Shown one piece after another: positions 16,741 to 47,930 of a DNA stretch of 49,748 nucleotides (within the stretch, counting starts at the first letter, position 1; every line of letters starts with the position of its first letter). The stretch comes from Arenicellales bacterium. GTDB lineage: Bacteria; Pseudomonadota; Gammaproteobacteria; BMS3Bbin11. A model generated the notes under the pieces. That model was not told the DNA's origin and did not search any database. It saw nothing but the letters and a program-made list of their open reading frames with translations. Both the position numbers and the translations under genes were made by a program. The stretch is taken from the NCBI GenBank assembly GCA_029287915.1, contig JARFQE010000126.1, forward strand, positions 1-49,748, in the 5' to 3' direction.

Positions 16741-17748
16741 TTATTTAAATTTGTTGCAACTTGAAAGTATGAGCATGAACTCATTGTTGTCACCAGTGTA
16801 CACTTGATGTGGTGAGAATCCGGCACTGATCAATAATTGCTGTATAGATTCTTTCGTGTATTTCCTGCTGTATTCGGTGACGATATGCTCTCCGTCATCG
16901 AATTTAATTTCGAGGTCTATCTCTCGTAGGGTAATGGTTTGCTCACGGGTGGATCGCAGTTGCATTTCGATGCGCGATTTATCTGTATCGAAAAAGGCAT
17001 GGTGTATGAAGTTGTCTGTATTAAAATCGCCGTCGAGGGACTGATTTAGAACATTAAGAAGGTTGAGATTAAAAGCTGCTGTGTAACCATCGCTGTCATT
17101 GTAGGCCGCATTTAAAACTGCTGCATCCTTGACCATGTCGACACCAAGTAAAAACCAGTCATCTTCACTTGCAGTTTCTCTTACATCACGTAGAAAACGA
17201 ATTGCCTGCTTATTTGAAAAGTTTCCCAGCGAACTACCCAGGAAAGTATACAGGCTACGCTCATGATGGTTTTCGAATCGCTGCATATCATGCAGAAAGT
17301 CGCCATGCCAGGCATCTATCGAAAGCCAGGGATAGCGGGCAATCAGTCTGCTGGCAGCTTCGATTAGAATTTCTTCACAGACATCCAGCGGCAGGTAGTG
17401 AACCCAGTCATTATGCTGATTGGCAGCCTGTATAAGTAGTTCGGTTTTTTCAGATGTGCCACTACCATATTCAACGATTGCGGCGGGCTTGACAGTTGCG
17501 ATGATATCATCAGCATATTTTCTTAGCAGAGCTGATTCTGCACGTGTTAAATAATACTCTTTTGTCTGGCATATCTGATCGAACAGCTTCGATCCTGTTT
17601 CATCATAAAAATACTTGGGTGGTAGTGAGCGCGGACTGCCTGTAAGTCCGGCATGAACATCTACGACCAGAGAATCAAGCTGTGGGCCCGGAGTTAATCG
17701 ATTTAGCTTAAATCTGTCAGTATTTACTGCATCTACTACATCATGCAT
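16741..17748 (-). CDS. egtD: L-histidine N(alpha)-methyltransferase
   Basis: EgtD trimethylates histidine with S-adenosylmethionine to give hercynine, the first step of ergothioneine synthesis. The 335-residue product has the family start LTPGPQLDSLVVDVHAGLTGSPRSLPPKYFYDETGS, the SAM-binding IVEYGSGTSEKTELLI, and the EgtD-specific YTFLGSSLGNFSNKQAIRFL. The C-terminal half contains TEYSRKYTKESIQQLLISAGF. It is divergent from egtC and egtB across a 78-base gap, which strengthens the assignment. The MFS gene follows closely on the same strand. The ergothioneine role is well known for this family, and the sequence gives no sign of damage. Confidence 0.95.
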   Translation of the reverse strand: MHDVVDAVNTDRFKLNRLTPGPQLDSLVVDVHAGLTGSPRSLPPKYFYDETGSKLFDQICQTKEYYLTRAESALLRKYADDIIATVKPAAIVEYGSGTSEKTELLIQAANQHNDWVHYLPLDVCEEILIEAASRLIARYPWLSIDAWHGDFLHDMQRFENHHERSLYTFLGSSLGNFSNKQAIRFLRDVRETASEDDWFLLGVDMVKDAAVLNAAYNDSDGYTAAFNLNLLNVLNQSLDGDFNTDNFIHHAFFDTDKSRIEMQLRSTREQTITLREIDLEIKFDDGEHIVTEYSRKYTKESIQQLLISAGFSPHQVYTGDNNEFMLILSSCNKFK

Positions 17749-17826
17749 GGTTATCCTTTACACATTTATGTTTATTTTCATTATACTGAGAGAAGTAACA
17801 CTGTCTAATATTGTTTCAGAGAGATC
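17749..17826. promoter_or_regulatory. Divergent promoter region between egtD and egtC
   Basis: This 78-base AT-rich gap must hold the starts of both egtD (minus) and egtC-egtB (plus). On the plus strand TATACT at 17782-17787 could serve as a -10 element, with TTTACA at 17757-17762 upstream; the 19-base spacing is longer than ideal. No clear operator palindrome is visible. Shared control of the two arms is an inference. Confidence 0.4.
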
Positions 17827-18606
17827 ATGTGCAGACTTGCTGCGTATATTGGCCCTAAATTACGTCTTGAGGATTTGCTCCTGAAGCCGGAACATAGTCT
17901 GTTCAAACAATCCTGGGCACCACGGGAGATGGTGGAAGCACGAATAAATGCTGATGGATATGGCTTTGGCTGGTTCGGTCCCGATCAGCATCCGTTGCGC
18001 TATCGTCATACTATGCCCATCTGGGCAGATCCTAACCTTCCGGAACTGGGGAAAGGACTGGAGTCCGATACCTGGGTTGCCGTCGTACGAAGTGCAACGA
18101 CCAATATTCCGATTAATCTAGCCAACACCATGCCTTATGCGGATGAGAAATATCATTTCATGCATAATGGTTATATCAATCATTTTTCCCGCACACTGCG
18201 ATCCTGCCTGAGGCGTGAATTTAAACCTGAGTTTGAAGATTTGATTGAAGGCAATACCGATTCAGAGCACCTTTTTATGCTGTTTAAGCAGATCATGTGG
18301 GAAACCGATAGTAATGATCCAGCTGAGGCGATGACTGAAATGGTAGCCCGCTTAAAAAAATGGTTAAAGGATGAGCGCGCCCTGCTAAATGTAGTTATTA
18401 CCATACCCGGAAAAATCTGGGCTATGCGCTGTGCAATTAACGGTAATTGCCCGTCGCTGTACTATTCACTCAATCCACCTCCCTTTCCTGAAGCCAGTGT
18501 GGTTGTTTCTGAGCCGTTGACTGATGAGGATGACTGGACAGAGGTTCCACCGCAGTCGTTACTGGTATTTGACGCATGCAATGAACCGGAACATATATAT
18601 TTTTAG
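17827..18606 (+). CDS. egtC: Ergothioneine biosynthesis amidohydrolase EgtC (class II glutamine amidotransferase)
   Basis: EgtC removes the gamma-glutamyl group from the sulfoxide conjugate made by EgtB. The 259-residue product starts MCRLAAYIG, so Cys2 becomes the N-terminal nucleophile of this Ntn-type hydrolase after Met removal. The class II amidotransferase motifs follow: NADGYGFGWFG (about 40-50), VAVVRSATTNIP, NTMPYADEKYHFMHNGYINHF and EGNTDSEHLFMLF. Similar proteins such as YafJ occur outside ergothioneine loci, but the immediate neighbours egtB and egtD support EgtC. The gene lies 11 bases before egtB. Its presence suggests that gamma-glutamylcysteine, not cysteine, is the sulfur donor here. 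Confidence 0.9.
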   Translation: MCRLAAYIGPKLRLEDLLLKPEHSLFKQSWAPREMVEARINADGYGFGWFGPDQHPLRYRHTMPIWADPNLPELGKGLESDTWVAVVRSATTNIPINLANTMPYADEKYHFMHNGYINHFSRTLRSCLRREFKPEFEDLIEGNTDSEHLFMLFKQIMWETDSNDPAEAMTEMVARLKKWLKDERALLNVVITIPGKIWAMRCAINGNCPSLYYSLNPPPFPEASVVVSEPLTDEDDWTEVPPQSLLVFDACNEPEHIYF

Positions 18607-18617
18607 AGATCATATCA

Positions 18618-19775
18618 GTGGATGATGAGATTGCTGATAGGCTCTCCACTTTGCATGGTCGCCTGATTAATCAGTTTTCGTTATATTCCGAAAACGATCT
18701 GCGTACACAATATCACCCTGACCTCAGTCAATTGGGCTGGCATCTTGCTCACATCGCCTTTATTGAACAATACTGGCTACGAGAAGTGGTGCTTGGCGAT
18801 GACAGCAGTACAAAAGATTTTCATCAATATTATTTTCCTGAGCTCATTGCCAGGACTGAACGTGGAGGCTTACTAGACATTGCAGACTTCGAGCGGCTGC
18901 AATACCACTTTTCAGATGCAGAAAAATTATGGACAGAGTTATCACGTATTCAATATGAACATCCTCTGTTGAAAAATGATTACCTGGGCTGGTTCCTGAT
19001 TCAGCATGCAGAGCAGCACTATGAAATCATGCATATGGTGCTACATCAAAGAGCAATAAACACAGTCCCTGAGACTCGCTATACAGCGGGACAATTCAAT
19101 GCACTGGATCCTGCTCTGCCAGCGTTGTTCATTGCAGAGGGTGAGTATGAAATGGGTTCAGATGATGTACTGGCCTGTGATAATGAGCAACCTGTGCACG
19201 TAGCGACGCTGCCTGCATTTTTGATTGCTGAGAAACCAGTAACTAATGCTGAATATCTTGGATTTATGCAGCAGGATGCATACCAGCGCCCTGAGTTCTG
19301 GTCTGATCAAGGATGGCAGTGGAAATTACAATCCAGAAGTATTGCACCAGATCACTGGCGGCAGGATGGGAGAGGCAACTGGTATAGTTTATCCCTCGAT
19401 GGCCCGACTGATATCAAAGCGAATGAAGCGGTATTTGGACTTAGCTGGTATGAAGCCGATGCTTTTGCCCGTTATGCAGCTTGCCGGCTGCCACATGAGT
19501 TTGAATGGGAGGCCGCAATGAAAGCTGATTCGATGCTGTTGAAATCGACAGGTCAGGCATGGGAATGGTGTGCCAATACTTTTTTTCCATATACAGGTTT
19601 TCAGGCTTTCCCCTACGAACGATATTCAACGCCCTGGTTTGATAATAAGCATTATATGCTGAAAGGAGCTGGCCCCATGACTGGAAATTCCGTACGCCAG
19701 CCCAGCTTCCGGAATTTCTATAATCCGGACAAGCGTCATATCTTTGCTGGACTAAGGCTGGCTTGCGGCTCATGA
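18618..19775 (+). CDS. egtB: Hercynine oxygenase / sulfoxide synthase EgtB
   Basis: EgtB is a non-haem iron enzyme that joins hercynine to a cysteinyl thiol with O2, giving a sulfoxide. The 385-residue product has an N-terminal DinB-like domain with the iron ligands expected from GWHLAHIAFIEQYW (about 40-53) and the HAEQH motif (HxExH, residues 130-134). The C-terminal FGE/sulfatase-modifying-factor domain contains EYEMGSDD, EKPVTNAEYLGFM, WEWCANTFFPYTGF and RNFYNPDKRHIFAGLRLA. Translation starts at a GTG at 18618, with AGAGA upstream; no in-frame ATG occurs before the conserved domain. It is slightly shorter than the mycobacterial enzyme. Its stop overlaps the start of the next gene (ATGA). 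Confidence 0.94.
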   Translation: MDDEIADRLSTLHGRLINQFSLYSENDLRTQYHPDLSQLGWHLAHIAFIEQYWLREVVLGDDSSTKDFHQYYFPELIARTERGGLLDIADFERLQYHFSDAEKLWTELSRIQYEHPLLKNDYLGWFLIQHAEQHYEIMHMVLHQRAINTVPETRYTAGQFNALDPALPALFIAEGEYEMGSDDVLACDNEQPVHVATLPAFLIAEKPVTNAEYLGFMQQDAYQRPEFWSDQGWQWKLQSRSIAPDHWRQDGRGNWYSLSLDGPTDIKANEAVFGLSWYEADAFARYAACRLPHEFEWEAAMKADSMLLKSTGQAWEWCANTFFPYTGFQAFPYERYSTPWFDNKHYMLKGAGPMTGNSVRQPSFRNFYNPDKRHIFAGLRLACGS

Positions 19776-46770: not shown

Positions 46771-46800
46771 TTGACAGTCATGAATCGACCTTGGCAGAAT
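46771..46800 (+). promoter_or_regulatory. Probable sigma-70 promoter for the EamA leader
   Basis: A perfect -35 box TTGACA (46771-46776) is followed after 18 bases by CAGAAT (46795-46800), a four-of-six match to the -10 consensus. Transcription would start near 46807 and run through the leader at 46807-46966. Confidence 0.55.
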
Positions 46801-46806
46801 GAAACC

Positions 46807-46966
46807 ACTATGTCTATACGTAATTCGATCAAATTCGTAATGTTCCCGGTGTGCCGCATCTGGCTGGCACGCTGTGGCCTTTACATGGACGGAATTATGT
46901 AAATCGATAGATACTAAATCATTTGTCAAAAGGCCACAGTTCATCGGACTGTGGCCTTTTTTATTT
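46807..46966 (+). ncRNA. Untranslated leader with attenuator/riboswitch-like structure
   Basis: This leader of about 160 nt precedes the EamA gene and contains: hairpin A, 46849-46855 with 46866-46872 (7 bp, one G-U); hairpin B, TTTACAT (46880-46886) with ATGTAAA (46897-46903); and the terminator at 46928-46962. CTGTGGCCTTT (46872-46882) is a perfect complement of AAAGGCCACAG (46929-46939), the 5' arm of the terminator, and can act as antiterminator. A 30-codon frame, 46810-46902, spans the antiterminator arm but lacks a ribosome binding site. I do not recognise a known riboswitch class. Confidence 0.6.
46928..46962 (+). terminator. Strong intrinsic terminator just upstream of the EamA gene
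   Basis: AAAAGGCCACAGT (46928-46940) pairs perfectly with ACTGTGGCCTTTT (46948-46960) around a 7-base loop and is followed by more T. It ends only 20 bases before the EamA start codon, so it would block that gene unless disrupted. Confidence 0.92.
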
Positions 46967-46982
46967 TTATAGAGGGCGCAGC

Positions 46983-47930
46983 ATGTCAGTGCCGATTTCA
47001 TACCTGACAGTAATATTAATCTGGACCACCACACCACTGGCGATAAAGTGGAGCGCTGAGGGCGCTGGTTTTGTTTTTGCTGTTTCCAGCAGAATGTTGC
47101 TTGGTGCTGTGTTGGGTATGTCGATGGCCATATTACTGCGACTGGAAATTCCCTGGCATAAAAGTGCAGTAAAAACTTATCTGTATGCTGGTCTGGGAAT
47201 AGCCATTTCCATGATGTTTGTCTACTGGGCAGCGCAATATATACCTTCAGGCTGGATATCGTTGATATTTGGCCTGTCGCCGATTATTACTGGCCTGCTG
47301 ATGTACGCTCTGCACGGGGAGAATGAATTTAGCAAAGACAAGCTGTTCGGCCTGTTTCTTGGCTTGTCAGGATTGACTGTGATATTTACTACGGGCCTTA
47401 CGCTTAGTTCAGAGGCTGTATTGGGTATAGCTGCGGTATTGGCTTCAACTATCTTATATTCATTTACAGCAATTAAGATCAAACAATATAACGACGGTAT
47501 CCCTGCGTTGACTATTACAGCAGCAGGGCTCATGTTTGCTGCACCATTTTATGGCTTGTGCTGGTATCTAATGGATGGTGAGATCCCCGATTTAGTCACC
47601 AGTCGTGCAGCAATTTCTATTCTTTATCTGGCAATTTTTGGATCGGTGATTGGGTTTGCCCTGTTCTTCTATATCCTCAAACATGTCAGTGCGTCACGAG
47701 TATCATTGATAACATTAGTAACACCCGTTACAGCACTTTTTCTCGGTAGATTCTTTAATAATGAGCCTCTCACTATGGAGCTGCTGACTGGCGCTATCAT
47801 GATCCTTATGGGCCTGGTTTTCTATCAATTTGGCATCAATGTAAGGCAGCAGAGAGCTGGTCCACAGTTAGCTGTAGAGATGGCCATTAAAAATACAAAT
47901 AGTAAAAATACAAATAGAAAGTGTGGTTAA
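46983..47930 (+). CDS. EamA-family (DMT superfamily) transporter
   Basis: The 315-residue product has about ten hydrophobic helices in two EamA repeats. The first begins ISYLTVILIWTTTPLAIKWSAEGAGFVFAVSSRMLLGA, the second GIAAVLASTILYSFTAIKIKQYNDG, and the end of the second repeat reads LITLVTPVTALFLGRFFNNEPLTMELLTGAIMILMGLVFYQFG; all are typical of drug/metabolite exporters. Such proteins export amino acids, metabolites or drugs, and the substrate cannot be read from sequence. I chose the ATG at 46983, with GAGGG upstream; the frame is open further upstream but runs through the terminator hairpin. Expression probably depends on read-through of that terminator. Confidence 0.9.
   Translation: MSVPISYLTVILIWTTTPLAIKWSAEGAGFVFAVSSRMLLGAVLGMSMAILLRLEIPWHKSAVKTYLYAGLGIAISMMFVYWAAQYIPSGWISLIFGLSPIITGLLMYALHGENEFSKDKLFGLFLGLSGLTVIFTTGLTLSSEAVLGIAAVLASTILYSFTAIKIKQYNDGIPALTITAAGLMFAAPFYGLCWYLMDGEIPDLVTSRAAISILYLAIFGSVIGFALFFYILKHVSASRVSLITLVTPVTALFLGRFFNNEPLTMELLTGAIMILMGLVFYQFGINVRQQRAGPQLAVEMAIKNTNSKNTNRKCG

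Follow-up and report, generated by a model that had tools for sequence, protein, structure and literature searches.

A probable ribosome-mediated transcription attenuator with a (near-)leaderless leader ORF upstream of EamA-family transporter genes

Background

The classical transcription attenuators, such as trpL of E. coli, use runs of the regulatory codon. Among the leader peptides that act in other ways, TnaC acts through Rho and needs conserved residues at fixed distances. In the Trp attenuator of Sinorhizobium meliloti, trpL (rnTrpL, with the peptide peTrpL), the leader ORF is leaderless, and the 5' end of the RNA coincides with its ATG (PMC7298713). As for the transporters of the EamA family, a cis-regulatory RNA located upstream of their genes has been described in the form of the ykkC subtype 2d orphan riboswitch (phn_DUF6/EamA) (PMC7266159).

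Here we describe the leader of an EamA gene found in a window of 49,748 nt (the whole stretch of DNA that was analyzed) from an Arenicellales bacterium, together with its counterparts in other genomes. They appear to represent a widespread attenuation system, a variant of ribosome-mediated attenuation, that is apparently undescribed. No report of this attenuator was found in the open-access literature (subscription journals were outside the search), and no EamA case was seen in the accessible part of a 2010 survey of premature terminators (PMC2965389). The leader ORF is below the length that routine gene finders catch, so that the system would be missed in ordinary annotation.

The regulated gene and its leader in the window

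The regulated gene (46983–47930, + strand, as are all features of the leader) encodes an EamA-family (DMT) transporter of 315 amino acids, as judged from Pfam PF00892 (110 bits) and its orthologs. A Shine-Dalgarno-like AGAGGG at 46971–46976, recognized by sequence, belongs to this gene and is separate from the leader ORF. The preliminary description of this DNA called the product an EamA exporter; the family assignment holds, and the exporter role is putative. Identity with YddG was rejected (30.7 bits, versus an equivalog cutoff of 300), as were YedA and the O-acetylserine/cysteine exporter, for which the gene fails the curated cutoffs. The gene neighborhood was considered as a clue to the substrate, and no conserved partner was found in it, the exception being adjacency of EamA and argD in one genome. 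Elsewhere in the window, an ergothioneine-type cluster occupies 16741–19775; its EgtD and EgtC score above the curated cutoffs, and its EgtB/SenA-like sulfoxide synthase scores below both of the relevant ones (267 versus 420 and 260 versus 360 bits), so the product may be ergothioneine or selenoneine. A phosphoribulokinase gene (PRK15453) at 481–1428 on the - strand suggests an autotrophic host.

An intrinsic terminator precedes the transporter gene. Its stem (46928–46942/46946–46960) has 15 pairs, a 3-nt loop, a U-rich tail and a folding energy of -22.4 kcal/mol, and the EamA ATG at 46983 is 22 nt past the stem end at 46960; the 13 bp and 20 bases given in the preliminary description were close to these values. 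The 5' arm (strand 3, 46928–46942) is common to the terminator, in which it pairs with strand 4 (46946–46960, the element extending to 46967 with the U-rich tract), and to an antiterminator, in which it pairs with strand 2. Strand 2, CTGTGGCCTTT at 46872–46882, is the perfect 11-nt upstream copy of the terminator 3' arm that had been pointed out before, and it pairs with the 5' arm at -21.4 kcal/mol. Among 20,000 first-order Markov sequences modeled on this region, with its composition, none had such a copy of CTGTGGCCTTT, and the folding of the whole leader is stronger than that of its dinucleotide shuffles (z = -3.6). The earlier proposal that the terminator and the pairing with the upstream copy are mutually exclusive structures is thus supported, and the exclusivity is conserved in evolution. 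Two hairpins said to flank the upstream copy are present in the predicted fold, but among orthologs the conservation of the 1:2 pairing is weak (z = -2.6).

The promoter-like TTGACA of the preliminary description is found at 46771–46776 as the -35 element and, with a spacer of 18 nt and the -10 element CAGAAT (46795–46800), gives a promoter match of 10/12. Nine nucleotides after this -10 element begins an ORF (46810–46902) that the first reading had overlooked; it has 30 codons, encodes MSIRNSIKFVMFPVCRIWLARCGLYMDGIM followed by a stop, and encloses strand 2. Its presumed control codons are Arg16 (46855–46857) and Trp18 (46861–46863), which end 14 and 8 nt before strand 2, respectively. When the RNA was folded with a ribosome placed at Trp18 or Arg16 and strand 4 not yet made, the 2:3 pairing formed, and with the ribosome at the stop codon the terminator alone formed. 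With strand 4 present, the thermodynamic minimum was the terminator in every case, and the choice would therefore be kinetic, as it is in the known attenuators.

Conservation among EamA orthologs

EamA orthologs were collected from three sources, namely relatives, the class (in which 110 of 369 genomes contributed) and named genomes, and they provided 176 distinct upstream regions. A terminator was present within 190 nt of the gene in 145 of these regions and was lacking in the scan of the other 31, and the full layout was recognized in 137. This layout consists of TTGAC, 16–18 nt (mostly 17–18), a -10 element (CAGACT or CACACT), mostly 6–7 nt and an ATG, followed by about 31 codons, a median of 26 nt and (A)AAGGCCRCAG...CTGYGGCCTTTTT. 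This anatomy is shared by the leaders of orthologous EamA genes in numerous families of the class, and it also occurs in a second class of the phylum. Cultured hosts that have the leader include Thiorhodococcus mannitoliphagus and Imhoffiella purpurea. In a sister species (L018; G001:C23:68790-69476), the leader is kept and the EamA frame is apparently interrupted, with piecewise matches and one in-frame stop.

Among the 137 leaders, TTGAC is kept in 120 and the spacing from the -10 element to the ATG is 6–7 nt in 104; where it is 6 or 7 nt, the base preceding the ATG is C in 83–89% of the leaders. No Shine-Dalgarno sequence was seen before the ATG of the ortholog leaders. This combination of promoter spacing, C at -1 and missing Shine-Dalgarno sequence suggests that the transcript most likely starts at the A of the leader ATG, or within a few nucleotides of it, and that the ORF is leaderless or nearly so. 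The promoter-plus-ATG pattern alone gave 82 matches in the host's own genome, versus 87 for a reversed-pattern control, and is therefore unusable as a detector.

Strand 2 has the consensus CTGYG(N)GCC and starts about 70 nt past the ATG, and strand 3 has the consensus AAGGCCRCAG. The strand 2 motif is found in all three reading frames, which indicates that it is conserved as a signal at the RNA level. In 122 nonredundant leaders, the terminator arm pairs with its own leader at -13.4 kcal/mol, versus -11.5 kcal/mol when arms are swapped between species (z = -11.1), and no permutation of this set reached the native value; for the whole leader, native against swapped pairing gave z = -10. Covarying pairs, which the preliminary description had named as the supporting evidence to look for, were found in the antiterminator: both sides had changed at 6 of 8 pairs in the alignment, at or above both controls, and Y–R covariation was seen at 56/128 (CG 20, UA 18, UG 18). 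The loss of the upstream arm in relatives, which would have told against the proposal, is not what is observed; the alternative pairing expected of an attenuator is conserved among them by covariation. The slow change of strand 3 between families would be understandable, since it must pair with both strand 2 and strand 4. Outside the promoter, the Trp/Arg codons, strand 2 and the terminator, sequence conservation in the ortholog leaders is about zero. In many ortholog leaders, one base (often U) is bulged out of strand 2 between its CUGYG and GCC parts (alignment A2, columns 57–59), and strand 2 is followed by a purine-rich GGAGGAA-like stretch that could pair with a UUUUCC tract ahead of strand 3.

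The leader ORF and its presumed control codons

For an ORF-openness check, leaders were picked only for having the promoter and an ATG preceded by a pyrimidine (CATG or TATG), with no condition on the ORF. In all 110 such leaders, frame 0 was open for at least 26 codons and had its stop ahead of the terminator, versus 7 for frame 1 and 50 for frame 2. An open ORF overlapping or abutting the antiterminator strand, as an attenuator should have, is thus general, and in the orthologs with the full layout it is 31.4 ± 3.3 codons long.

In-frame TGG occurs at codons 15–22 in 94 of the 122 nonredundant leaders; the corresponding counts for the other frames are 32 and 6. The enrichment of Trp is greatest 9–14 nt upstream of strand 2 and is confined to frame 0. 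Arg makes up 13–23% of frame 0 at 9–33 nt upstream of strand 2, versus 3–13% in the other frames. The EamA leaders usually have a single Trp codon together with Arg codons and no tandem run, and about 14 of the 122 have no Trp in codons 11–25, some of them through misassignment of the ORF. The presumed control codons thus lie upstream of strand 2 by roughly the distance from codon to ribosome edge. A ribosome stalling on a Trp codon about 12 nt ahead of strand 2 would be expected to leave that strand only just uncovered; in E. coli trpL the control codons are about 14 nt from the antiterminator strand.

Otherwise the sequence of the peptide is not conserved. Its dN/dS of 0.74 (14 independent close pairs) does not support strict conservation, the pN/pS of 0.76 is indistinguishable from that obtained by frame-blind relocation of the same changes (0.83 ± 0.13), and no residue other than Trp is conserved at a fixed distance in a W-anchored profile of the leaders. 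Such a pattern fits a role for codons at certain positions, and not for residues. The peptides avoid acidic residues and have a net charge of +4.5.

Other genes preceded by the same leader

A covariance model built on the region from strand 2 to the terminator gave matches (E ≤ 0.001) in 97 of the 369 sampled genomes of the class; most are before EamA, and some of the weak ones are due to chance. Weak matches without a leader ORF, at several loci, were taken as chance terminators. The exact terminator sequence works as a detector: nearly all of its matches precede EamA genes, and those remaining are either terminators of the ordinary sort or new targets of the leader. Complete leaders were found ahead of the gene of a secreted alpha/beta hydrolase in three genomes, which belong to two families (L219 in G052, L330 in G192 and L323 in G138), ahead of an uncharacterized secreted protein of about 128 amino acids, with no Pfam or NCBIfam match, in two genomes (L322 in G240 and L332 in G125), ahead of an ORF that is transglutaminase-like as annotated by eye (L340), and ahead of argD (acetylornithine transaminase) in two genomes (L221 and L329).

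The two argD leaders, MNNLKPMALRMRFMLRLRGVNTVLCVLGKG and MTIQPCTHASRRRRPPLRVVASPCACRERYIRGLG, are Arg-rich and Trp-free, and where EamA and argD are adjacent (G033:C15), the leader is likewise without Trp and contains RR two times. EamA leaders of the other class, for example MNKHHAHKKIAPFGWLVARRIASLCPGVFII, have an Arg pair after the Trp, nearer to strand 2. To judge from their codons, the argD leaders, few as they are, and those of the other class would favor the sensing of codons.

Proposed mechanism and alternatives

We consider it probable that the leader is a ribosome-mediated transcription attenuator whose (near-)leaderless ORF senses slow decoding of Trp and Arg codons. RNA polymerase would initiate at or just ahead of the leader ATG, and a ribosome would load on the 5'-terminal AUG and trail the polymerase. 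If translation continued to the stop, the ribosome would cover strand 2, strands 3 and 4 would pair, and transcription would stop some 20 nt short of EamA. A ribosome slowed or stalled at the Trp/Arg codons 8–14 nt upstream of strand 2 would instead leave strand 2 exposed, 2:3 would form, and readthrough into EamA would follow. The most likely signal would be that charged tRNA-Trp, charged tRNA-Arg or both run short, or that an agent imitates this condition. Several observations count against this reading: the single Trp codon, where the classical attenuators have runs; the roughly 14 Trp-free leaders of 122 and the 31 of 176 regions without a terminator; the weakly conserved 1:2 hairpin, which would serve when there is no translation; the acid-poor peptides of charge +4.5, which hint at a nascent-chain role; and the presence of non-amino-acid genes (the hydrolase and the secreted protein) under the same leader.

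The basic and acid-poor peptides, and the hydrolase among the targets, make a nascent-chain or drug-sensing leader the main rival. It would be an attenuator with a regulated arrest peptide, in which an R/K-rich chain ending at Trp stalls on a ligand or a ribosome-targeting drug, and the transporter exports the compound. D and E are nearly absent around the Arg–Trp stretch, R is enriched in frame 0 only, the transporter and the hydrolase resemble a detoxification pair, and upstream ORFs that sense several classes of ribosome-targeting antibiotics are known (PMC12121999). We nevertheless regard this explanation as unlikely, because only Trp is fixed in distance, the dN/dS is not below the frame-blind expectation, the order of Arg and Trp is reversed in the other class, and the argD leaders suggest an amino-acid logic.

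The preliminary description had read the architecture as that of a riboswitch or attenuator, with an aptamer that it did not recognize, and had judged a new ligand-sensing RNA plausible; the architecture stands, and the reading as a riboswitch is not supported. In a true riboswitch, a ligand would bind an aptamer located upstream of strand 2 and thereby set the terminator, the ORF being there by accident; the mutually exclusive structures and the flanking hairpins would fit this reading. The region in question, however, is a translated-looking ORF, open in one frame in 110 of 110 leaders and with in-frame Trp/Arg codons, and no core of sequence or structure is conserved outside strands 2, 3 and 4. 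The Rfam search that had been suggested for the aptamer gave no match at gathering or permissive thresholds, the best sub-threshold score being 24 bits against a cutoff of 59, and we hold this to be the least probable explanation. It is also very improbable that the terminator is an ordinary one, ending a small transcript (a small RNA or that of a small protein) and lying by chance before an EamA gene with its own downstream promoter. The leader transcripts would then be released constitutively, and the Shine-Dalgarno-like site of EamA itself would fit; but in many families the orthologs have the terminator right next to the EamA start, the antiterminator pairing is conserved, and in the window the approximately 20 nt between terminator and ATG leave no room for a promoter.

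Returning to attenuation by a translating ribosome, we tentatively suggest a wider scheme, which is possible but which we would not yet favor: a single leaderless chassis, present in two classes and apparently movable, may be re-addressed by the codons before strand 2 (Trp plus Arg ahead of EamA and the secreted hydrolase, Arg only ahead of argD). Initiation of the 70S/leaderless kind would in this way be tied to a stress-type attenuation regulon, with an EamA transporter that responds to the charging of tRNA-Trp and tRNA-Arg as its main member. If the proposed mechanism is true, the 5'-terminal control ORF would be a natural system for initiation at a 5'-terminal AUG coupled to transcription, and the leader would offer an initial clue to the signal for an orphan subfamily of EamA transporters, and perhaps to their substrate as well.

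Comparison with known systems

With regard to the protein, YddG, an exporter of aromatic amino acids (5i20), and other EamA/DMT transporters are of the same family as the regulated gene, with a weak profile match. The ykkC subtype 2d RNA is based on an aptamer and is unrelated to the leader in the window, which is based on an ORF and has no Rfam match. TnaC, SpeFL and ErmDL are similar in that a short leader peptide has a functionally placed Trp (TnaC) or Arg and the position of the ribosome sets downstream expression; the residues at fixed distances and the purifying selection on the peptide that would be expected of a TnaC-like leader, however, are absent here, as shown by the W-anchored profile and dN/dS. 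The trpL of S. meliloti differs in that a 14-aa peptide controls trpE(G), and its sequence, class and target are different. The anatomy resembles that of E. coli trpL and the other classical attenuators (his, leu, ilv, phe and thr), in which, as here, control codons are located just upstream of the antiterminator strand, the 2:3 and 3:4 pairings are alternatives, and an intrinsic terminator precedes the structural gene. In contrast to these, the leader AUG is predicted to be at or beside the 5' end of the transcript, a single Trp codon and scattered Arg codons replace the run, an ORF of about 31 codons encloses strand 2, no Rfam leader family matches, and the controlled gene is an uncharacterized transporter and not a biosynthetic operon.
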